A DNA stretch of 39,589 nucleotides, from positions 1 to 39,589 of the forward strand of contig JAMQPH010000125.1 of the NCBI GenBank assembly GCA_023717605.1. Reading direction: 5' to 3'. A program made the translations under genes and the position numbers. Source of the stretch: Pyrinomonadaceae bacterium (GTDB taxonomy: Bacteria > Acidobacteriota > Blastocatellia > Pyrinomonadales > Pyrinomonadaceae). This document shows, piece after piece, positions 13,684 through 29,731 of this stretch. The notes below the pieces were generated by a model, which was not told the origin of the DNA, did not search any database, and worked only from the letters and a program-made list of their open reading frames with translations. Numbering within the stretch: the stretch's first letter is position 1; each line of letters starts with the position of its first letter.

Positions 13684-16600
13684 ATGATCGGTCAGACAAT
13701 TTCTCACTATCGGATTGTCGAAAAACTCGACGAGGGAGGCATGGGCATCGTCTATCTCGCCGAAGATACCGTGCTTGAACGGCGGGTCGCCATCAAGACT
13801 CTTAAGGCAGGCCGCGGATCGCCGAACCAGCACTATCGCGGACGCTTTCTGAGAGAGGCGCGCGCCATCTCAAAACTGTCTCACCCGCACATAGCCGCGA
13901 TTTACGATTATGGCGAGACCGATGACGGCCACCCTTATATCGTGATGGAGTTGATTAAAGGCGAAACGCTCCGTGAGCTGATGGCTCGCGAAGCCCTTAC
14001 CATTTCGCGGGCCCTCGAGATTATTGGACAGGTTGCCGACGCCCTCGGCGAAGCACACCGTAACGGCATTATTCATCGTGACGTAAAACCGTCGAACATC
14101 GCTATTAATGAACGGGGTGAAGTCAAAGTGCTCGACTTTGGTTTGGCAAAAGAGATCGAGCCTGCCGATACTGCCGATGCAAAAGGGTTGGAATTCCTGA
14201 ATACTAAGACGCGCGAAGGCGTGATGGTGGGCACGCTACAGTACCTTTCGCCCGAGCAGGCACTCGGCGTCGAAGTGGACGAACGCAGCGATCTCTTTAC
14301 GTTAGGATCGGTGTTATATGAATGCATTGCCGGACACCCGGCCTTTTCGGGTAAAGGTACAGTGGAGGTTTGCGCGAAGATTGTTCGCGACGATCCGACC
14401 CCACCGTCACATTTGAACGGCAACATTCCGCGGGAACTCGATCGGATTACGCTCAAGGCCCTGGCTAAGAAACCCGACGACCGTTACCAGACGGCTAGGG
14501 AAATGATCGCCGATCTCCACGCGATGCACGCAGCCCTCGACAAACAAGGTTCCGATCAAACAGTCACGCGTTTGATTTCGCCAGTCTCTGGAGACCAACA
14601 GAGCGGAGCACGAAAAACAATATCGGACTTCTTCAAGCTGCCGCGATTGTCCGTCGGTATGGTGCTACTTTCGCTGGCTGCGATTGGATTAGTGACCTGG
14701 GGCGTGATTGCTTTGCTGAAGTCCACGCCGCACCAACCGCCGGCCGAAGCGCAGAGATGGTATGAGGTCGGTAGCAACTATCTCCGTGAGGGAGCCTATT
14801 TCAAGGCAATCAAACCTTTACAACAAGCAGTGAGTACGGATGATAAATTTGCGCTGGCTCACGCTCGATTGGCTGAAGCCTGGACTGAACTAGACTACAC
14901 GGAACGTGCTCAGCTAGAACTCCTGCGAGTTGACGGATTGGTGCCGAACCGTTCGAGTCTCGAGCAAGCTGACATCCTTTATCTCGATGCCATTCGAGCG
15001 ACCATCACCCGAGACTTTCCCGTTGCGATCGCCTCCTACACCAAGCTCGCGAAGCTCAAACCGGATGAAGCCCAGACCTATCTAGATCTGGGACGCGCGT
15101 TTGAAAAGAGCGACGAGATCGATAAGGCACTCGAAAACTTTAACCTGGCAATCAAACACGATGCGCAATATGCCCCTGCGTTTCTTCACCTTGGCATCCT
15201 GTATGGCCGCAAGGAAGATCTACCGAGCGCGAACGCGGCTTTCGACAAAGCGGATTCGCTTTTTCAAACGCTCGGCGACTTTGAAGGACGCACTGAAGTG
15301 CACTACCAGCGCGGCGTGCTTTTAAACAAGATTGGCAAAATGTCTGAAGCACAGGAGCAGCTACAGGAGGCGCTCAACATCGCTCGCACGTCGAGTAATC
15401 AATATCAGGAGATTAAGACAATGCTCCAAATCAGCACTGTCTTATATTCCCGAGGCAAAACTGAGCTGGCGAAAGAATTCGCTGGTGAAGCCGTCAAACT
15501 GGCCCAGGACGTTGGGATCGAGAATCTGGCAACGCAAGGCCTGATTGATCTGGGAAACGCATACATCCTCCGGCGTGAGTATTCTGAGGCGGAGCGAGTC
15601 CTGAAGCAGGCACTCGACTTCGCGCAACGGAACAAGGGCCGCCGAAACGAGGCAGGATCCCGGCTAACGCTGGCGAAGCTTTACATTCAACAGGAATTGA
15701 AGACCAACGAAGCGCTGGGCTATCTGGAACAAGCGCTGAAGTATTTTCAGGAAGGCGGTTACAACAAGGAAGTCTCACTGGCGATCCTCTTACGTGGGCG
15801 AGGCAGGCTTCTAAAAGGAGACTACAACGGCGCGCTCCAGGATTTTGAGCAACAGCTTCAATTCGCCCAACAGACCAACAACCAATCACAGTTGGCATCA
15901 ACCTATCTGCTAATCGGAAACCTGCTTGAGAGCTTAGAGCGTTACCCGGAAGCTTTGACGAACTTTAAGAAGAGCTATGATATCTACAAGACTCTCGACG
16001 TCCCGGTAATCGTTGGTTACCTGCTGGTCGATCAAAGCGAAATGCTCTGGCGCATAGGCAGGCCCAACGATGCGCGTTCCATACTCGCAGAGGTTCCCGC
16101 GGTCGCCAATTCTCTGGACAGCAATTATCGACTAGTAGTGCTTGCCAGAAGCGATCTGGTTCGATCTCAGATTGAACTGACGGAAGGACGCTTTCCGGAG
16201 GCAAAGGCGGCCGCAGAGCACAGCCTTACGCTCTCAGGCGCAAAAGTGAATCACACCGGGGTGGAAACCAAATACCATCTGGGATTGATCCAGATTCGCT
16301 CAGGTGCAAGAAGCGCCGGACTCCAATCGAGTAAGCAAGCGGTCGAATGGGCGAAGCAGCTAAACGATGAGCACCTGGTTTCGCTCACCATGATGGGCTA
16401 CGCAGAAGCGCTGTTGCAAAACGGTGACGCAAAGGCGGCACTGAGTGTGGCGCTGGAAGCTCAGCAGCGCTTTAGTGGCGTCGGCCAACGAGAGTCTGAA
16501 TGGCAAGCATGGTTGATTGCCGGCCGGGCCAGTCAGCGGCTCGGAGATAATGCCGGCGCGCGCGATCAGTTTGGACACAGCAATGAAGCGCTCGCTGCCC

Positions 16601-16704
16601 TTGAGCAGAAATGGGGAAGCGAAGCTTTCAACGTGTACGTCACCAGGCCGGACGTGAAGGAGTGGCGCAAGCAGCTGGATCAGTTGTTTGCTGCGACCCG
16701 ATGA
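13684..16704 (+). CDS. Transmembrane Ser/Thr protein kinase with TPR domain
   Basis: 1006 residues. The kinase domain (about 8-280) is complete: Gly loop LDEGGMGIVYLAED, VAIK with Lys38, HRD with catalytic Asp133 (HRDVKPSN), DFG with Asp151, and LSPEQALG plus DLFTLGSVLYE. A single membrane segment lies at about 325-346 (VGMVLLSLAAIGLVTWGVIALL). The remaining about 650 residues are helical TPR-like repeats (for example AQTYLDLGRAFEKSDEIDKALENF split over the 460s-480s, ALQDFEQQLQFA and ALTNFKKSYDIY). The TPR half would be extracytoplasmic if the topology is standard. PknB-type kinases with C-terminal TPRs are typical of acidobacteria. Substrate unknown. The start is ATG 13684 with only a weak GAGAGG upstream. 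It converges on the subtilase gene, with 15 nt between stops. Confidence 0.93.
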   Translation: MIGQTISHYRIVEKLDEGGMGIVYLAEDTVLERRVAIKTLKAGRGSPNQHYRGRFLREARAISKLSHPHIAAIYDYGETDDGHPYIVMELIKGETLRELMAREALTISRALEIIGQVADALGEAHRNGIIHRDVKPSNIAINERGEVKVLDFGLAKEIEPADTADAKGLEFLNTKTREGVMVGTLQYLSPEQALGVEVDERSDLFTLGSVLYECIAGHPAFSGKGTVEVCAKIVRDDPTPPSHLNGNIPRELDRITLKALAKKPDDRYQTAREMIADLHAMHAALDKQGSDQTVTRLISPVSGDQQSGARKTISDFFKLPRLSVGMVLLSLAAIGLVTWGVIALLKSTPHQPPAEAQRWYEVGSNYLREGAYFKAIKPLQQAVSTDDKFALAHARLAEAWTELDYTERAQLELLRVDGLVPNRSSLEQADILYLDAIRATITRDFPVAIASYTKLAKLKPDEAQTYLDLGRAFEKSDEIDKALENFNLAIKHDAQYAPAFLHLGILYGRKEDLPSANAAFDKADSLFQTLGDFEGRTEVHYQRGVLLNKIGKMSEAQEQLQEALNIARTSSNQYQEIKTMLQISTVLYSRGKTELAKEFAGEAVKLAQDVGIENLATQGLIDLGNAYILRREYSEAERVLKQALDFAQRNKGRRNEAGSRLTLAKLYIQQELKTNEALGYLEQALKYFQEGGYNKEVSLAILLRGRGRLLKGDYNGALQDFEQQLQFAQQTNNQSQLASTYLLIGNLLESLERYPEALTNFKKSYDIYKTLDVPVIVGYLLVDQSEMLWRIGRPNDARSILAEVPAVANSLDSNYRLVVLARSDLVRSQIELTEGRFPEAKAAAEHSLTLSGAKVNHTGVETKYHLGLIQIRSGARSAGLQSSKQAVEWAKQLNDEHLVSLTMMGYAEALLQNGDAKAALSVALEAQQRFSGVGQRESEWQAWLIAGRASQRLGDNAGARDQFGHSNEALAALEQKWGSEAFNVYVTRPDVKEWRKQLDQLFAATR

Positions 16705-16719: not shown

Positions 16720-18396
16720 TCACGGCCCGCCGGTAGTGCAGAGTTCTATAGACCGGAAGACGTTAAGGCGGCCTCCTGACGCAGTCTCAGACAGCGAAGG
16801 AGTGGGATCCGTGCCTTCCATGATTAGCCGCTTCAAATCGGCGGCATTGAGAGTCGAACAGGCGGGCACCGAAAGCATTAGCGCGGCCGCTCCGGAAACG
16901 AACGGCGTGGCCATCGAAGTACCACTGTTTCGATAGTATTCATAACCCAAATTAACCGGATAGGTCGAGTATATCCCTTTCCCGGGAGCGGCGAGGTGCA
17001 CACTATTTTTCCCATGATTCGAAAGGCTCCCACCGATCGTGGCAAGCGCTCCGGTTGAATTGATCGCAGTTACTGAGACCAGATTCGACAAAGGATAGTT
17101 CGAGGGATAGTGAGGAATAACGTCGTTGTCATTACCATTATTTTCGCCGGCGGAAGCGACAAAGAGCATGTTCTTACTGCCGGCGAGCTCGATGGCTTCT
17201 CGAAGCAGCAGGGAGTCTACACCTGGATCAGACGCGGTTGTCAGATACCCGAAACTGGCATTCAACACGCGAACGTTAGCGTCAGCGCCTAACTCTTCGT
17301 GCAATTGAACAGCGAATTCAATTGCTCTCGACACGTTCAGGCCCGTTGCAGTACCGAAAGCGCCGATTGTTTTTAGGCCGAGGAGTGTTGTTTCCCAATT
17401 AACACCCACAACTCCTTCGCTATTGTTTCCCACTGCTCCGATAATCCCTGCGACGTGCGTGCCGTGACCAGTGTTCGTGGTCGGATCCAACGGGTCGCAT
17501 ATTTCCGACGGAGTCAGGGCAACGGCGTTGAAACCATGACTACCCTTGGGACAGTGGATCGCGGTCCCGCCCACAGTCACGTCAAAGTCTCTTGGTGCGC
17601 TCCAGACATTGGCTAACAGATCGGGATGCTCGTAATAGATCCCCGTATCGATCACTCCCACGACGATGCCACGATCGCCCGTCGAAAGCCCCCATGCAGC
17701 TTCAGCGTGGGTGTCGATTCCCGGATTTTCCGGGTTCTTAAGACCCCAGAGCCAGGTCAACAGAAAGAGGTCGTCGTCAGGTGAACTCGCTGGAGTGGCG
17801 GCAGGCGAAGGAGTAGCCGCCGGCGGAGGTGGAGTAGCAGCAGGCGAAAGAGTGGCTGCAGGCGAAGAAGTAGCCGCCGGCGGAGGTGGAGGAGGGGCAG
17901 AGTAAGTCTCTAACGGTTGTCCCTCAACTGGCGGAGTGATTTGAAAGTGGAAGTTCGGTTCAGCATGAACAACGGTTGCATTCACGTTGTCCATTATGAG
18001 GGTCCGCTTCTTGGCGATGGCTTCGTTGAATCGATCCATGAGCCGCTGCACGGGTAGCGTTGGAGATTCAATCAGGAACCAACAACTATTTGTCGCCCGA
18101 CTAGCCACGGTTCCACTATCGTCCGTGATTTGTCGACTGAACTCTGTCACCTTGTCCACCAACTGCCTAGATTCAACCCCTTCACAACTACTAATCTTAA
18201 TGAGAATCTGTCGGGGAGCTACATCAACGCCGCGAAAAGTCTCGTGCTCCGGCTTCGGCGGCGTTGTCTGAGTAACGGATGATGAGACCTGCTGACGACT
18301 GCGACATGAGAACATCAGCAGCCACGCTAGACAAAGAAGTACGATGGCCGCACATGCGATCTTTTTCCACTCTTTGTAAACCACATCTAAAAACAT
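16720..18396 (-). CDS. Membrane-anchored subtilisin-family (S8) protease
   Basis: 558 residues. A signal anchor is at about 11-29, then an I9-like propeptide region (about 62-150, ending VVHAEPNFHF). A Pro/Ala/Ser linker (167-206) precedes the S8 catalytic domain (about 225-555). The triad is Asp250 (VGVIDTG), His311 (GHGTHVAG) and Ser494 (SGTSMATPFVSG). The usual oxyanion Asn after 'AG' is replaced here by Glu418 (VASAGENNG), with Asn next to it, which is odd. AGGAG stands about 10 nt before ATG 18396. It is probably exported and held at the outer face of the inner membrane. It converges with the TPR kinase and lies 143 nt downstream of the Tat lipoprotein gene on the same strand, so linkage with the latter is possible. 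Confidence 0.92.
   Translation of the reverse strand: MFLDVVYKEWKKIACAAIVLLCLAWLLMFSCRSRQQVSSSVTQTTPPKPEHETFRGVDVAPRQILIKISSCEGVESRQLVDKVTEFSRQITDDSGTVASRATNSCWFLIESPTLPVQRLMDRFNEAIAKKRTLIMDNVNATVVHAEPNFHFQITPPVEGQPLETYSAPPPPPPAATSSPAATLSPAATPPPPAATPSPAATPASSPDDDLFLLTWLWGLKNPENPGIDTHAEAAWGLSTGDRGIVVGVIDTGIYYEHPDLLANVWSAPRDFDVTVGGTAIHCPKGSHGFNAVALTPSEICDPLDPTTNTGHGTHVAGIIGAVGNNSEGVVGVNWETTLLGLKTIGAFGTATGLNVSRAIEFAVQLHEELGADANVRVLNASFGYLTTASDPGVDSLLLREAIELAGSKNMLFVASAGENNGNDNDVIPHYPSNYPLSNLVSVTAINSTGALATIGGSLSNHGKNSVHLAAPGKGIYSTYPVNLGYEYYRNSGTSMATPFVSGAAALMLSVPACSTLNAADLKRLIMEGTDPTPSLSETASGGRLNVFRSIELCTTGGP
17791..17896 (-). repeat. Imperfect repeats encoding a Pro/Ala linker in the subtilase
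   Basis: Units encoding PAAT, SPAAT and PPPPAAT-type blocks recur (on the plus strand, GCAGGCGAA and GTAGCCGCCGGCGGAGGTGGA recur with variation). They encode the flexible segment between propeptide and catalytic domain, which likely spans the wall or periplasmic space. Length variation between strains would be expected. Confidence 0.7.
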
Positions 18397-24117: not shown

Positions 24118-25005
24118 ATGGGAATCAATATCGCGCTGTTGCAAATGACGGGTTGTGGTCTTAACAGTGATGCCAGTCGCGACAAGGGGGAACTTTATTG
24201 TCGCCGCGCCCAGTCGATGGGGGCCGATATCGCGTTGTTCCCGGAGATGTGGAGCGTCGGGATGACCTTCTACGATCCAAAGCAAGCTAATGACCGTGAG
24301 CGCTGGCAAGCACAAGCCATCGGTCGGAATGACCTTTTCATCCAGCACTTCCGAAGTCTCGCCAAAGAATTGAAGATGGCAATTGCACTTAGCTACCTTG
24401 AGAAGTGGGAGGGTGCGCCACGTAACTCCGTTTCTTTGATAGATCGACGAGGCGAAATCGTCCTTACTTACGCCAAGGTTCACACGTGCGAGTTCGACGT
24501 GGAGTCAGCGCTAACACCCGGCGATGGCTTTCCGGTCGGCGAATTGGAAACGGCTACAGGAACAGTAAAGATTGGTTTCATGATCTGTTATGACCGTGAG
24601 TTTCCCGAAAGCGCGCGAATGTTGATGCTACAAGGAGCTGAACTCATTCTGACTCCAAATGCCTGCACCTTGGACGACCACCGCATCGGTCAGTTCAAGG
24701 CGCGGGCCTTTGAGAACATGGTTGGGGTTGCCATGACCAACTACGCGGCGCCACAGAACAACGGGCACTCCGTGGCGTTCGATGCAATCGTTTATCCGAT
24801 TCCAGACGGCGAAGCGCGGAACACAACCATAGTCGAAGCCGGAGAAGAGGAAGGGGTATACATCGCAGCGTTCGACCTGAACAGCATCCGTTCCTATCGT
24901 GAGCGTGAAACGTGGGGTAATGCCTATCGTCGGCCGCGCCTTTACCAACTACTCACCGAGACAAAGGTCGAGCCTCCGTTCGTCCGTTCGGAGGCGACTC
25001 GTTGA
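24118..25005 (+). CDS. Carbon-nitrogen hydrolase (nitrilase superfamily)
   Basis: 295 residues with the full nitrilase-superfamily triad: Glu43 (LFPEMW), Lys120 (YAKVH) and Cys157 (MICYDREFPE). The cysteine block continues with SARMLMLQGAELILTPNAC, usual for amidase-type members. It should hydrolyse an amide, carbamoyl or nitrile bond of a small molecule in the cytoplasm. Length and motifs fit N-carbamoyl-amino-acid or omega-amidase-like branches, but the substrate cannot be chosen. ATG 24118 has only a weak ribosome site. It is encoded alone, pointing toward the C11 protease gene, which ends at 25090 on the other strand. Confidence 0.9.
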   Translation: MGINIALLQMTGCGLNSDASRDKGELYCRRAQSMGADIALFPEMWSVGMTFYDPKQANDRERWQAQAIGRNDLFIQHFRSLAKELKMAIALSYLEKWEGAPRNSVSLIDRRGEIVLTYAKVHTCEFDVESALTPGDGFPVGELETATGTVKIGFMICYDREFPESARMLMLQGAELILTPNACTLDDHRIGQFKARAFENMVGVAMTNYAAPQNNGHSVAFDAIVYPIPDGEARNTTIVEAGEEEGVYIAAFDLNSIRSYRERETWGNAYRRPRLYQLLTETKVEPPFVRSEATR

Positions 25006-25089
25006 CGAAATAGCGTATGGAAATGGGGGCAAATCAAGATCCGGTTCGCTGAATTGAAGAGACCTCTATGCGAAAAGCTCAAACATACA

Positions 25090-26868
25090 TTAGTCGTCCG
25101 CGGTGTACGCTTCGTCAGGTTTCTTCGTGAAACCTGAAATGTCCCATCGGCTCTCGATATTCTTGAAGAGCCGCAAGCTGTTGAAGAATCCGCTCGTACC
25201 GCCACCAGCCATCTTGGAGCCTTCCTGACCGGCGATCTTCGAGCCTTCCTGGCCGGCGATCTTCGAACCCTCCTGACCGGCGATCTTCGAACCTTCCTGG
25301 CCGGCGATCTTGGAGCCTTCCTGACCAGCGATCTTCGAGCCCTCTTGGCCGGCGATTCTAGAACCTTCCTGGCCGGCGATCTTAGAGCCTTCTTGTCCCG
25401 CGATCTTGGTGTTCGAAGCCCCGTTGCCATCAGACAAAACTGACCCGAGTCGCTCGTCAAATCTCACGCCCGAAGGATATCTATACTTGGAGCCCGCAGG
25501 CGCATTATCGACCGGCATCTCACATTTGCGGAGACTGACATCGTAAAGGTATTTCTTAAGGAAGTTGGTCCACGACAATCCTTCTTGTTTTGCGTCCTGA
25601 GCAAACCACAGGCTCTCGTAATTCTTCCGCGATACTTCATAGGCCTCGCGCGACCACGGAAAGAATACTGAGACTCCGTTCGAGTACTGGTAACCTCCAC
25701 CACTAAAGCCACTGAGGATCACGGCTTTCTTTAGCTCTTTCAGAACCTTTCTGCATCCCTTTTGTACCATTCTCAAGATGTCTATCTCTACATCGTCGCC
25801 GCCAAGCTCTTCCGCGACGCGGCCACATTCCCGATCGAGCAGTTCACAGAAATCCCCTAGATCGACATTCTGATCGTACATGTACGACTGACATTTCCAA
25901 TGCACCTGGAGAATCACACGTTCCATTTGCCTGTAGAGTCGGCTTTCCTCGTCCTCAAAGCATGCGAGCAGAGCCTCAGCTAGTCCGTTGAAAGCGTAAG
26001 CCAGATCGTCAAACCGGCTCAGATCCCAGGCGGCCATGTCGACCGAGACGCCCCCAACAGTGTAAGCATCCTGACTACGGATGAATTGCTTCACGAAAAG
26101 CTCCGCTACACTTTTGGTGTCGAGATTGCGGGTATTGTCCCGGGTTAAGCAACCAAGTATTTTCGCGTACGTCCAGCCGGCGCTCGGAACGCTCCCTTCA
26201 GAAGCGATCACCGTCTCGGCCACATGATAGAATTGATATCCAACTTCGAGCATGCCCATGACGCAGCTATCGAATCCCAGGATGGCGAGCTTTTGGCCAA
26301 GCAGCACTTCTGTTTCAAGGTCCCATGCATCACGTTCAATTTTACGTGTTCTAGCGTCTTTCTCTAACTCCTTTTTGGTGCTGACCATTCCTAGAAGGAC
26401 ACTGTAAAAATCAGTCATCTTCATCGCTTTGCCGGACGTCTCATCTTTAAACAAACCGATGTCCTGAAAGCCGAGCGAGTGGCCGGAAAATATCAGCGCG
26501 TACTTTTTCGCACGCCGGCCGAACGATATCTCTCCGTCGTTTTCAACCTCGACCTTGTTAACGCACCAGTCCACGAAATTGAGAATTGAACGTTTGTCGG
26601 CGGCATTCTCATTTTCTTTCTTGGGACCCGGAATTAGTTTGTTGGGCACTTTGTATGAACGGACATATCGTGGTTTCCGCGGTTCGGAGAAATCACAGTA
26701 CAAGGTCGGAATCGCGGGCGAGTTGCCATCGTAGTAAACGAAAAGGTTTGGGCTTTCAGAACCTTCAGCGGCGACCTCTTTTATTTGCTCCATCGCGTAG
26801 GCCATATCGACTGCGAGGTTATTGTCGCCGGCCATATAGATCATGATTGTCCATTCTTTCTGATTCAT
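25090..26868 (-). CDS. Clostripain-family (C11) cysteine protease with octapeptide-repeat tail
   Basis: 592 residues. The C11/caspase-like catalytic domain runs about 1-460: WTIMIYMAGDNNL at the N-terminus, catalytic His130 (IFSGHSLGF) and Cys202 (GFDSCVMGMLE). C11 proteases cut after Arg or Lys and can mature by self-cleavage; a Lys/Arg-rich stretch at about 164-180 could be such a site. There is no signal peptide, so it is probably cytoplasmic. Residues 488-551 are eight tandem copies of KIAGQEGS (one has Arg for Lys), followed by KMAGGGTS and a tail ending EAYTADD. AGAGGAG directly precedes ATG 26868, and the gene begins 13 nt after the stop of the propeller kinase, so the two form an operon. 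The tail is the unusual part; its role is unknown. Confidence 0.9.
   Translation of the reverse strand: MNQKEWTIMIYMAGDNNLAVDMAYAMEQIKEVAAEGSESPNLFVYYDGNSPAIPTLYCDFSEPRKPRYVRSYKVPNKLIPGPKKENENAADKRSILNFVDWCVNKVEVENDGEISFGRRAKKYALIFSGHSLGFQDIGLFKDETSGKAMKMTDFYSVLLGMVSTKKELEKDARTRKIERDAWDLETEVLLGQKLAILGFDSCVMGMLEVGYQFYHVAETVIASEGSVPSAGWTYAKILGCLTRDNTRNLDTKSVAELFVKQFIRSQDAYTVGGVSVDMAAWDLSRFDDLAYAFNGLAEALLACFEDEESRLYRQMERVILQVHWKCQSYMYDQNVDLGDFCELLDRECGRVAEELGGDDVEIDILRMVQKGCRKVLKELKKAVILSGFSGGGYQYSNGVSVFFPWSREAYEVSRKNYESLWFAQDAKQEGLSWTNFLKKYLYDVSLRKCEMPVDNAPAGSKYRYPSGVRFDERLGSVLSDGNGASNTKIAGQEGSKIAGQEGSRIAGQEGSKIAGQEGSKIAGQEGSKIAGQEGSKIAGQEGSKIAGQEGSKMAGGGTSGFFNSLRLFKNIESRWDISGFTKKPDEAYTADD
25216..25407 (-). 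repeat. Eight tandem 24-bp units encoding KIAGQEGS
   Basis: 192 bp, exactly 8 x 24, in frame within the C11 protease gene. Differences among units fall at third codon positions (GCC/GCT/GCG, GGT/GGC/GGA, CAG/CAA, GAA/GAG, TCC/TCG/TCT). The only amino-acid change is AAG to AGA, Lys to Arg, in the third unit of the protein. It is not a CRISPR array: there are no spacers and the frame is preserved. Confidence 0.97.
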
Positions 26869-26881
26869 TGCTGTTCTCCTC

Positions 26882-29731
26882 TTATCGGAAGCCCTTAATC
26901 AGGACAATGTCTCTCGTCGCGGAAAAGCGGTATGCCGCAATCTTGCCATCGCGCGAGACGGCAAAACTGGTTAGGAATTCTGATTTGAAATTAGTTAATT
27001 GTTTTGGCGCGCTGCCGTCAATAGGTTGACTCCAAACGTTTAGGATCCCGGATCCGGTATCCAGGTACGCGATCGACCGGCCATCAGGCATCCATGCAAA
27101 CGCTATAGGTTGAACGGTACGAGGAAGATCAATTGTCTTTACAGGCTCGCCACCTTCGGAAGGAATCATCGCCAACTTGGGTTGGTTGTTTACCTGTTCG
27201 TCAAGATAAAAGTACGAGATCAGCTTGCCATCAGGCGATATCAATGGGAATTGCGAAGGATGCTTAGTCAATTGCGCTGGAGCTCCGCCATCAATTCCCA
27301 CCTGCCAAATGGCCGATGTCCCTGAGCGCATCGACATGAAAATCACAAAGCGACCATCAGGAGAACAAACCGGAGACTCGTCAACATAACTGCCATCGGT
27401 CAGTTGTTTTGGGTTGGTACCGTCGGCATCAATTCGCCAGATGTTCCGACTGCCCGATCGATTGGATTGGAAAACAACATAGCGACCATCGGAAGAAACC
27501 GATGGTTGATGATCGATGAAAGCGTCGGCCGTCAACTGCTTGCTTTCTGAGCCGTCGTGATTAACCATCCAAAGGTCCCAATTCTCTCCGGTGCGACTCG
27601 CATAAACTATTTTCCCATCCGGTGTCCATGCGACCGTCTCAGGAAGATTGGTTTTGAGAATCTGTCGTGCGTGGCCTTCATCTCCATTTTGAGCATCATC
27701 ATTTGGAGCGGTGATCCAAATACTACTGGAGTTCACCTGTTGGATCGTAGCGATAGTACCTGAATCTGATGTCAAGCCAAGGCTAACTTCTCCATAACCG
27801 CTTAAGTCGTTCGTTATCCTGCGCGCCTGGCCGCTGGGATATGGAAGAAACCAAATCTGCGTGCCGATAGATGAAGACTCAGGCTGAGCAGTCATGATCA
27901 AGCCGCTGCCGTCTGCGAGCCAGATCATTCGACCGACGCTGGCCCATTTTTCAGAACCGATTGGTCTCGGGTCTCCACCTTCGACCGGAACTTCTACGAC
28001 GCTCGAGTACCCGGCGCCCATTCCATTGAACATGCCGCAGGCGATTCGTTTTCCGTCTGGTGACCATGACGGTCCCGAAGTAGAGAAGCCATTCGGTTGT
28101 TTGCGCACGGCAATAGTCCTGGGTTGCCCGCTGCCGTCGGTATTTGCCAACATCAGCGACATGTCTTCCTGATTCTTGCGCACGAAAGCGAATTGCTCGC
28201 CGTTACGAGAAAACGCAACAGCACTGAAGACGCGGTCGAGCACTTTTGCCGGACTGCCACCCAGGACAGGAATGCGATAGAGCGCAGGTACGAACTTGTT
28301 TCTTTCCAACGTGGCGACGTAGTAAATCAATTCGCCGTCAGGCGAGAAGGTTGTGGCCAGATAACCACCGTTTTCCGGCGGAACGATCCGCACCAGGCTG
28401 TTCGTCGATACCTGCCTGAGCCACAAGCTGGCTTGCTGTTTGGCGTCATTCGCAGCGCAAACTACGTACTTGCCATCAGGCGAAATCGCGACTTGACCGT
28501 TTATGTCCTCGCCATTTACTTTCCCGCCCGTCGTTAGCGCCGTCATCTTTGGCGGACCGAACTGTTTAGGTTGAGTGAACAGCTTATACAGTCCGAAGCC
28601 AATCGCACCAGCAACCAAAAAGCCGAACATGAGCACCGCAATAGCCGCCTTCTTATATTGCTTTATCCCCGCAGCTACGAATTCAACGCTTGAGAGGGCT
28701 CGCGTGTTGGCGAGATCTCCTGAGCCCGCTGTTGATCTTCCGGGTTCTTGCAGCGCGGTTTCTTTCGCTGCGAGTGAGACTACATTCGAGTTTGTCGCCG
28801 GCGCGAGTGATGACTGTGGCGGTACGGAACGATTGAAACCAGAAATGGATGCCGGCATTGCACCGGACTCGATCCGCTGCTTCAGTCGCCTCAGCTTGCC
28901 AAGCATTTCTTTCGCCGTCTGACAGCGCTCTTCAAGATCTTTCGTCAGCGCCTCAGCAACAATCCATTCGAGAGCTTCTGGCACTTCGGGCGCGAAGTGG
29001 GCTACCGGCAGCGGCTCGCGGTCGGTAATCGCGACAATGATGTGGCTCATTGACGCGCCCTCGAATGGCGCACGCCTGGTGAGCATTTCATAGAGAACGA
29101 CGCCGAGACTCCAAACATCCGAGCGTGCATCAACTTCACGTCCAGCGGCCTGTTCCGGCGACATGTAAGCAGCCGTTCCCAGAACGGCGCCGGGCTCGGT
29201 ATTGACGAGGGCCATCGTTGTTGCTTCGGATCCCGCTGATGAGTCTTTCCTCTCGGTCAGCTTCGCCAGGCCGAAGTCCAGCACCTTCACGATGCCGTCG
29301 GTGCGGACCATGATGTTCTCTGGCTTGATGTCGCGATGAACAATGCCGGCGGCATGTGCGGCAACCAATGCGGAGGCAATTTGCGTCGCGATGTCGAGTA
29401 CTTCGGTCAACTTCAGCCGCTTGTGCAGGTGCTCTCGCAGGGTGACACCATCGACGAACTCAGTCGCAAGAAAAGTAGTGTCGCCCGCGCGGCCAATTTC
29501 ATACACGGTAAGAATGTTTGGATGATTAAGCGCCGACGCGGCCTTCGCTTCCTGAATGAAACGCTTCAGCCGGTTTTGATGAGCAGCGACTTCGCCTGAC
29601 AGGAATTTCAAAGCCACCGGCCGACCCAGCTCATTGTCCTGGGCCCGGTACACCTCACCCATTCCGCCTGCACCGATCTTGCTGATGACGCGATAGTGGG
29701 AGAGGGTAGTTCCGGGGGATAGTTCTGGCAC
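26882..29731 (-). CDS. Transmembrane Ser/Thr kinase with TolB-like beta-propeller
   Basis: 949 residues from GTG 29731, preceded by AAAAAGG. The kinase domain (about 12-275) is intact: [18 protein letters not shown] with Lys42, HRDIKPEN with Asp134, DFG with Asp152, MSPEQAAG. A Ser/Pro-rich linker is followed by one membrane segment at about 355-378 (AVLMFGFLVAGAIGFGLYKLF). The C-terminal about 560 residues are WD40/TolB-type repeats (ISPDGKYVV, FSPDGELIY, WSPDGKRIA, SSDGRYVVFQSNRSG, CSPDGRFVIFMSMRSG), probably a periplasmic sensor or binding propeller. PknB-TolB fusions are typical of acidobacteria. It is the first gene of an operon with the C11 protease. A partial copy of its 5' end and leader lies at 34724-34910. 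An imperfect hairpin (TTGCAGC-GCAT-GCCGCAA, 29750-29767) is in its leader. Confidence 0.95.
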   Translation of the reverse strand: MPELSPGTTLSHYRVISKIGAGGMGEVYRAQDNELGRPVALKFLSGEVAAHQNRLKRFIQEAKAASALNHPNILTVYEIGRAGDTTFLATEFVDGVTLREHLHKRLKLTEVLDIATQIASALVAAHAAGIVHRDIKPENIMVRTDGIVKVLDFGLAKLTERKDSSAGSEATTMALVNTEPGAVLGTAAYMSPEQAAGREVDARSDVWSLGVVLYEMLTRRAPFEGASMSHIIVAITDREPLPVAHFAPEVPEALEWIVAEALTKDLEERCQTAKEMLGKLRRLKQRIESGAMPASISGFNRSVPPQSSLAPATNSNVVSLAAKETALQEPGRSTAGSGDLANTRALSSVEFVAAGIKQYKKAAIAVLMFGFLVAGAIGFGLYKLFTQPKQFGPPKMTALTTGGKVNGEDINGQVAISPDGKYVVCAANDAKQQASLWLRQVSTNSLVRIVPPENGGYLATTFSPDGELIYYVATLERNKFVPALYRIPVLGGSPAKVLDRVFSAVAFSRNGEQFAFVRKNQEDMSLMLANTDGSGQPRTIAVRKQPNGFSTSGPSWSPDGKRIACGMFNGMGAGYSSVVEVPVEGGDPRPIGSEKWASVGRMIWLADGSGLIMTAQPESSSIGTQIWFLPYPSGQARRITNDLSGYGEVSLGLTSDSGTIATIQQVNSSSIWITAPNDDAQNGDEGHARQILKTNLPETVAWTPDGKIVYASRTGENWDLWMVNHDGSESKQLTADAFIDHQPSVSSDGRYVVFQSNRSGSRNIWRIDADGTNPKQLTDGSYVDESPVCSPDGRFVIFMSMRSGTSAIWQVGIDGGAPAQLTKHPSQFPLISPDGKLISYFYLDEQVNNQPKLAMIPSEGGEPVKTIDLPRTVQPIAFAWMPDGRSIAYLDTGSGILNVWSQPIDGSAPKQLTNFKSEFLTSFAVSRDGKIAAYRFSATRDIVLIKGFR

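Follow-up and report, generated by a model that had tools for sequence, protein, structure and literature searches.

A clostripain-family protease with a tandem-repeat tail that may serve as a built-in array of cleavage sites

A C11 (clostripain-family) cysteine protease encoded in the window, the whole 39,589-nucleotide stretch of Pyrinomonadaceae DNA that was analyzed, carries a C-terminal tail in which a Lys-containing octapeptide is repeated eight times (Table 1). The layout of C11 domain, linker, short tandem repeats and end segment is common to its relatives, mostly Blastocatellia. The sequence and length of the units (5-10 residues) differ between species and nearly all units contain exactly one basic residue. 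We propose that the tail is a built-in Lys/Arg cleavage-site array, a cis-substrate that regulates the C11 protease, and give this reading a probability of roughly 0.5; the cleavage, the cutter and the switched target are what we infer. Each unit would correspond approximately to the stretch gripped by the protease groove and would present one P1 Lys or Arg. The array might be cut by the enzyme itself, or by a CHAT-family partner where one exists, and the cuts would shorten the tail and free a conserved end segment with a K/R-N motif, by which the protease would be switched or tuned. This control probably belongs to a stress or defence pathway linked to sigma factors. A growing number of links connect clan CD proteases (caspases, CHAT, C11) with immunity and regulated proteolysis in bacteria, yet to our knowledge little is known about the control of C11 enzymes inside cells. 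In this lineage the protease may itself encode its substrate, in many copies and different versions. If so, each tail could reveal the specificity of its enzyme, which is testable with synthetic peptides.

Table 1. Features of the protease gene and its upstream neighbour, in window coordinates
Feature	Position	Strand	Basis or remark
C11 (clostripain-family) cysteine protease with repeat tail, 592 aa	25090-26868	-	Pfam PF03415 E 2.5e-27
Catalytic His130	26479-26481	-	by alignment to C11; H in 62/62 of the tailed clade
Asp200, counterpart of the S1 Asp (PmC11 Asp177)	26269-26271	-	two residues before Cys202; D in 47/62 of the clade
Catalytic Cys202	26263-26265	-	C in 62/62 of the tailed clade
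Linker, protease domain to array, aa 446-487, limits approximate	25408-25533	-	after the last invariant core columns of the 14-row alignment
Tandem array, 8 x KIAGQEGS, unit 3 = RIAGQEGS	25216-25407	-	aa 488-551; predicted disordered
Array units	25384-25407, 25360-25383, 25336-25359, 25312-25335, 25288-25311, 25264-25287, 25240-25263, 25216-25239	-	order 1 to 8
Degenerate ninth unit KMAGGGTS	25192-25215	-	after the eighth unit
Conserved C-terminal segment FFNSLRLFKNIESRWDISGFTKKP with hydrophobic-[K/R]-N motif	25117-25188	-	motif in 51/55 clade members with complete 3' end
Ser/Thr kinase with C-terminal PD40 propeller repeats	26882-29731	-	Pkinase E 2.9e-51, PD40 E 1.5e-35

The window protein matched Pfam Peptidase_C11 with 96.8 bits, above the curated cut-off of 25.8, and scored 24.9 bits against a cut-off of 550 with the NCBIfam clostripain equivalog TIGR02806, so it is not clostripain proper. 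The nine solved structures found by Foldseek at E <= 0.001 were C11 proteases, with 9cip (clostripain) and 6mzo on top. The source genome has one C11 match. Cys202, which a first-pass annotation of this DNA had picked as the residue to mutate, was invariant in a 14-row alignment. In PmC11 the catalytic cysteine is Cys179, and Asp177 lies two residues ahead of it. According to the PmC11 report, C11 enzymes cleave after Lys/Arg, a specificity tied in PmC11 to Asp177 of the S1 site, and both PmC11 and clostripain self-cleave to activate, PmC11 at Lys147 (PMC4850288). The Asp linked to basic specificity in C11 is present in the window protein as Asp200, in agreement with the earlier expectation that a clostripain-type protease would cut after basic residues. 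The protein resembles clostripain and PmC11 (MEROPS C11) in fold, His/Cys dyad, S1 Asp and expected Lys/Arg specificity, and a variable K/R-rich loop seen by eye before the catalytic strand could match the C11 self-cleavage loop. It differs in having an array tail, a feature not mentioned for clostripain or PmC11 in the accessible part of that report (PMC4850288). It also differs from clostripain, besides the TIGR02806 score, in that no signal peptide was seen by eye: the protein starts MNQKEWTIMIYMAGDNN, in the first predicted strand of the catalytic domain, and is probably intracellular.

The tail is predicted to be disordered. The AlphaFold2 model obtained with the 14-row alignment was modest (mean pLDDT 59), with low-confidence stretches in the core too, including residues 129-139. 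Block pLDDT dropped from 65 to 24 in the linker and was 23-27 over the array, and the whole tail (462-592) stayed below 50. A folded solenoid is disfavoured by the array values and by unit lengths of 5-10 residues.

The window array was also recovered by TRF. Among its eight units pS was 0.613 and pN 0.0137 (Nei-Gojobori-type counts), and the variable sites were third codon positions with the exception of one second-position change, the Lys-to-Arg replacement in unit 3. With synonymous sites near saturation and the peptide almost unchanged, the copies appear old as DNA and held the same as protein, and fresh DNA duplication is ruled out. The first-pass annotation had described a near-identical peptide despite third-position differences, with coordinates that proved exact, and had ascribed it to selection at the amino acid level rather than recent duplication; both statements were borne out by the synonymous and non-synonymous counts on the aligned units. 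The octapeptide, or a variant with one or two positions changed, occurs in 7-14 full copies in six relatives from other genomes (L002, L003, L004, L005, L006, L018), so the array is not an artefact of a single genome. Some arrays of relatives are younger; L010 has the lowest pS, 0.14. Read in a shadow frame (24942-25460, minus strand), the window array gives an Arg/Pro/Ser-rich repeat, which we take as mechanical.

A profile of 14 close relatives matched 54 of the 162 genomes of the class, and PF03415 matched 43 of 396 genomes in a draw over the phylum. The fetched loci yielded 110 distinct C11 ORFs or fragments, of which the 96 with a long enough core were placed in a tree. Tail arrays occur in 40 rows of this tree, and 37 of these rows fall in a clade of 62 (support 98/80); the other three are L061, L077 and L106. 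The window's subclade of 15 rows (support 100/98) is nested in this clade. At a score threshold of 8 or more the array detector flagged 44 arrays, 42 of which were counted, with L077 and L106 included though they lie outside the clade. Left out were L061, which lies outside the tailed clade and has an acidic 9-mer array lacking K/R, and L038 1863-3833, where the repeat beyond a run of N had been translated out of frame; the latter remained an array row in the clade counts because the true array lies in the other frame. Two-copy arrays were included, and the detector misses short or degenerate repeats such as those seen by eye in L012 and L023. Units of the window subclade are KIAGQEGS, KLAGQEGS, KIAGHEGS, KLAGTQDS, KLAGERDS, KMPGQMDS, KLGGSGSST and RLGTGQG, while units elsewhere include DGLPFTK, NNPPWSK, FTPPYVK, YVPPYSK, VPPYDVDNK, DFPELGTK and NGDINK as well as AETAR, RMMTD, REVGG, EGGPYSGK, RSNPSAS and NPVFRVEG. 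Across the 42 arrays pS ranged from 0.14 to 0.95 and pN from 0 to 0.17. The contigs of L010, L011, L018, L035, L105 and L152 end inside the array; assembly thus apparently tends to break off at arrays, and the copy numbers of these six are minimum values.

Exactly one Lys or Arg was present in 231 of the 246 units of these 42 arrays, two in 14 and none in one. The consensus unit had a single basic residue in all 23 arrays of the CHAT lineage (47 rows, described below) and in 15 of the 17 window-subclade arrays, L035 and L152 having two. Counts of Gly, Pro, Ser/Thr, acidic and aromatic residues per consensus unit vary among arrays. The probability that all 21 unit types, which were merged by hand and some of which may share ancestry, have exactly one K/R by chance was about 10^-8.6 to 10^-9.9, assuming independent residues and a K/R frequency of 0.08-0.14. 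Within arrays, the 257 cells of the basic columns contained 11 K/R swaps and two losses. Swaps thus account for 11 of 13 changes, whereas mutation by itself would give a share of 12-32% (P 5e-9 to 1e-4 across transition biases of 1 to 8). The single basic residue that had been pointed out in the window units therefore holds in the relatives too. Two kinds of change in homologues had been named as evidence against cleavage: strong variation of the repeats was indeed found, while the basic residue was nearly always kept.

Losses at basic columns (2/257) were not significantly rarer than changes at other columns (41/1656; Fisher P 0.11), which points to selection on the whole unit, beyond the basic residue alone. 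Since unit length is near the span of the protease subsites, whole-unit identity could follow from subsite fit. Pro follows K/R in one array only (GKPNPADSG in L093, where the S1 residue is His). Lysine-specific chemistry (acetylation, isopeptide) is disfavoured by the K/R swaps and by all-Arg arrays such as that of L008, and a polyanion-binding basic tail by the one basic residue per unit, often accompanied by an acidic one. One basic residue in otherwise free units, combined with a protease expected to cut after Lys/Arg, makes a cis-cleavage array the most economical account.

At the S1 position the clade of 62 has Asp in 47 rows, His in 12, Glu in two and Gln in one. Arrays were present in 33 of 44 proteins with S1 Asp versus 4 of 14 with the Asp replaced (Fisher P 0.003, ignoring relatedness); four 3'-cut rows without an array were set aside here and three 3'-open array rows kept, whose removal changes the first ratio to 30 of 41. 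Most replacements of the Asp fall in one subclade, so this P value is only indicative. Eleven S1-Asp members had no array by the detector. Four arrays persist in S1-His proteins, mostly with one Lys per unit, and K/R conservation is therefore not strictly dependent on the S1 Asp. The S1-His subclade consists of L095, L099, L100, L098, L093, L092, L091, L089, L029, L097, L101 and L102, and its cleavage specificity is possibly shifted. In several of its members the tail terminates with a Cys-containing segment resembling CxCxSIKNYP.

No tail array above threshold was found in 26 C11 ORFs of other phyla, some of which are overlapping views of one gene; these came from Elusimicrobiota (five of the 20 matches of one genome), Cloacimonadota, Hodarchaeota and a Bacillota draw in which PF03415 matched 11 of 295 genomes. 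Inside the phylum, outside the clade, the array of L061 lacks a basic residue. By eye, no such tail was seen in the last 75 residues of non-C11 ORFs around the CHAT matches of the source genome, which argues against the tail being a general CHAT tag on other proteins. Repeat-bearing non-C11 ORFs in the fetched loci were mostly shadow frames of arrays, with exceptions such as L012, L065 and L111. The one in L111 (3034-3366, minus strand) is a 110-aa ORF with RVKSGDN-like heptad repeats; it lies immediately downstream of a C11 gene for which no tail array was detected, and may be non-coding repeat DNA. Array matches to ORFs of roughly 940-1040 aa (E 2.8e-5 to 7.9e-4) seem to stem from low sequence complexity. 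Among the open-licence papers listed, none dealt in its title or abstract with array tails of C11 proteases or with a pairing of C11 and CHAT, an absence that is weak as evidence.

In favour of the cis-substrate reading we count the single K/R, the bias to K/R swaps, C11 specificity and self-activation, the intact His/Cys pair, the association with S1 Asp, the Pro in L093 together with its S1 His, the predicted disorder and the lack of such tails in the other ORFs surveyed. Against it we count the arrays of S1-His proteins, the P value of 0.11, the two basic residues in L035 and L152, the array-less S1-Asp members, and the consideration that 8-14 copies are more than a simple cleavable linker should require.

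The end segment is conserved. Of the clade members whose 3' end is complete, 51 of 55 have a hydrophobic-[K/R]-N motif after the core or array, versus 6.0 expected by shuffling (done for members with at least 20 residues left; two of the 55 fell below that and were left unshuffled). Outside the clade the motif was found in 6 of 31 proteins. Its frequency would fit a role of the units or the K/R-N end as a pseudosubstrate or decoy that fills the active site and keeps the enzyme inactive, the cut products being irrelevant. A loop over the active site keeps PmC11 inactive until it is cut, as stated in the PmC11 report (PMC4850288). In our model the tail end showed a weak helix (557-568) and block pLDDT values of 25-39 over 551-590; the end segment was placed at low confidence only (34-39), so the model gives no support to such a blockade, which we consider unlikely.

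Precursors of the yeast alpha-factor type are secreted and contain tandem near-identical peptides between basic residues, which change between species and are cut in trans. The C11 tails likewise consist of a repeated peptide bounded by basic residues, near-identical inside an array and strongly different between species, and cleavage would give products of 5-10 residues. The protease could free many copies of a short peptide such as IAGQEGSK, a signal or the ligand of a co-evolving receptor. Unlike in the alpha-factor type, however, the array is fused to a protease, and the window protein begins directly in the catalytic domain with no secretion signal visible by eye. The frequent neighbour clusters (at least three loci) were CHAT, anti-sigma, sigma and kinase genes, although a receptor among the rarer clusters may be missed, and no free-standing precursor was recognized among 1939 non-C11 ORFs of at least 100 aa in the fetched loci. 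We find a peptide precursor improbable. The more specific version, in which a single protein is both the precursor and its processing enzyme and a triggered caspase-like protease chops its own tail into lineage-specific signal peptides that would act, for instance, on kin cells or a sigma-factor circuit, seems improbable to us as well. If true, a self-chopping tail would be a bacterial counterpart of repeat-encoded peptide hormones.

The kinase ORF lies directly upstream of the window C11 gene on the same strand with a gap of 13 bp. The first-pass annotation had placed both genes in one operon; the adjacency and shared strand stand, and the operon is what the 13-bp gap suggests. Nine of the 15 rows of the window subclade have a kinase within 1.5 kb of C11, eight of them on its upstream side, and the window itself has one as well; Ser/Thr occurs in the consensus unit of all 17 arrays of the subclade, as would fit a phosphorylation array for the adjacent kinase. 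As a general rule this idea of the annotation fails, since Ser/Thr is absent from the consensus unit in 8 of the 23 CHAT-lineage arrays. Moreover, L043 and L044 of the window subclade have no kinase in about 6 kb upstream of C11, and neighbouring kinases match the window kinase over its whole length only in L031 and L040, where orthologues of about 73% identity adjoin C11. Upstream sequence was shorter than 400 bp in L004, L006, L007 and L009 of this subclade. Phosphorylation accounts for neither the single K/R nor the K/R swaps, and we regard it as very improbable. The source genome has 68 kinase matches, some of them fragments.

In the CHAT lineage a CHAT-family gene lies downstream of C11 on the same strand in 29 of the 30 members with at least 2.5 kb of downstream sequence, at a distance of at most 200 bp in 27 of them and of 1.4-1.9 kb in L089 and L084. 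The thirtieth, L097, has one CHAT gene upstream and, in a separate neighbour listing, another 62 bp downstream. Sigma- or anti-sigma-like genes occur in the fetched flank of 24 of the 30. Purpose-built profiles served to identify the CHAT, kinase, sigma and anti-sigma neighbours, with Pfam and NCBIfam checks on single examples: one CHAT neighbour (CHAT E 3.9e-65, with TPRs), a sigma factor (TIGR02989 E 8.6e-10, below the family cut-off) and an anti-sigma factor (zf-HC2 E 1.3e-4). The catalytic residues of the CHAT proteins of the wider lineage and the source genome are conserved (His in 49 and Cys in 50 of 54 aligned rows, the rest being gaps). In the window subclade, no CHAT gene was found downstream of C11 in any of the 10 rows with at least 2.5 kb downstream; TIGR02999 ECF sigma factors occur near C11 in L035, L036, L038 and L039, and of five proteins checked only that of L042 did not match TIGR02999.

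The constant partner genes of the CHAT lineage and the identity of whole units would agree with a multivalent docking tail, in which the units would attach to CHAT-TPR, a kinase, the membrane or a polyanion and the basic residue would serve for contact, not for cleavage. The window subclade, however, keeps array and end segment with no downstream CHAT, and the CHAT partners of the C11s closest to it form a clade of 14 (FastTree) without any of the 16 CHAT matches of the source genome. In addition, many units are net neutral, against polyanion binding, and unit sequences would seem to change faster than a shared partner surface suggests. Docking is in our opinion an unlikely explanation.

A neighbourhood containing a CHAT protease, a second caspase-like protease and sigma-factor genes has reportedly also been found in the Haliangium SAVED-CHAT and prokaryotic caspase cascade, a likeness drawn by description only; we know of no array tail in that system. 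In the Csx29-Csx30-sigma (Craspase) system, a TPR-CHAT protease, an ECF sigma factor and an inhibitor share one neighbourhood, and the protease Csx29 cuts an inhibitor of an ECF-like sigma factor (PMC10028731). The wider C11 lineage is similar in having CHAT with sigma or anti-sigma genes, but a second, C11 protease with an array tail is added, and the window subclade is without the CHAT gene. Since sigma factors recur in both C11 lineages and Csx29 acts on a sigma-factor inhibitor, the pathway in which we place the cis-substrate is probably regulatory. The neighbourhood of C11, CHAT and sigma/anti-sigma genes looks like a two-protease signalling cassette, possibly an undescribed one, for which no paper was found in the open-licence literature.

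The combination of tailed C11, CHAT, ECF sigma factor and zf-HC2-like anti-sigma factor recurs in Blastocatellia (L088, L100, L114, L157-L167 and others). On two contigs of the source genome (C415 and C194; L175 and L176) paired CHAT genes occur with several smaller ORFs between them. The window contains a second Ser/Thr kinase ORF of 1006 aa (13684-16704, plus strand; Pkinase match 13708-14502), and a five-copy 18-bp tandem repeat (17792-17886) lies within an S8-like protease ORF (16720-18396).
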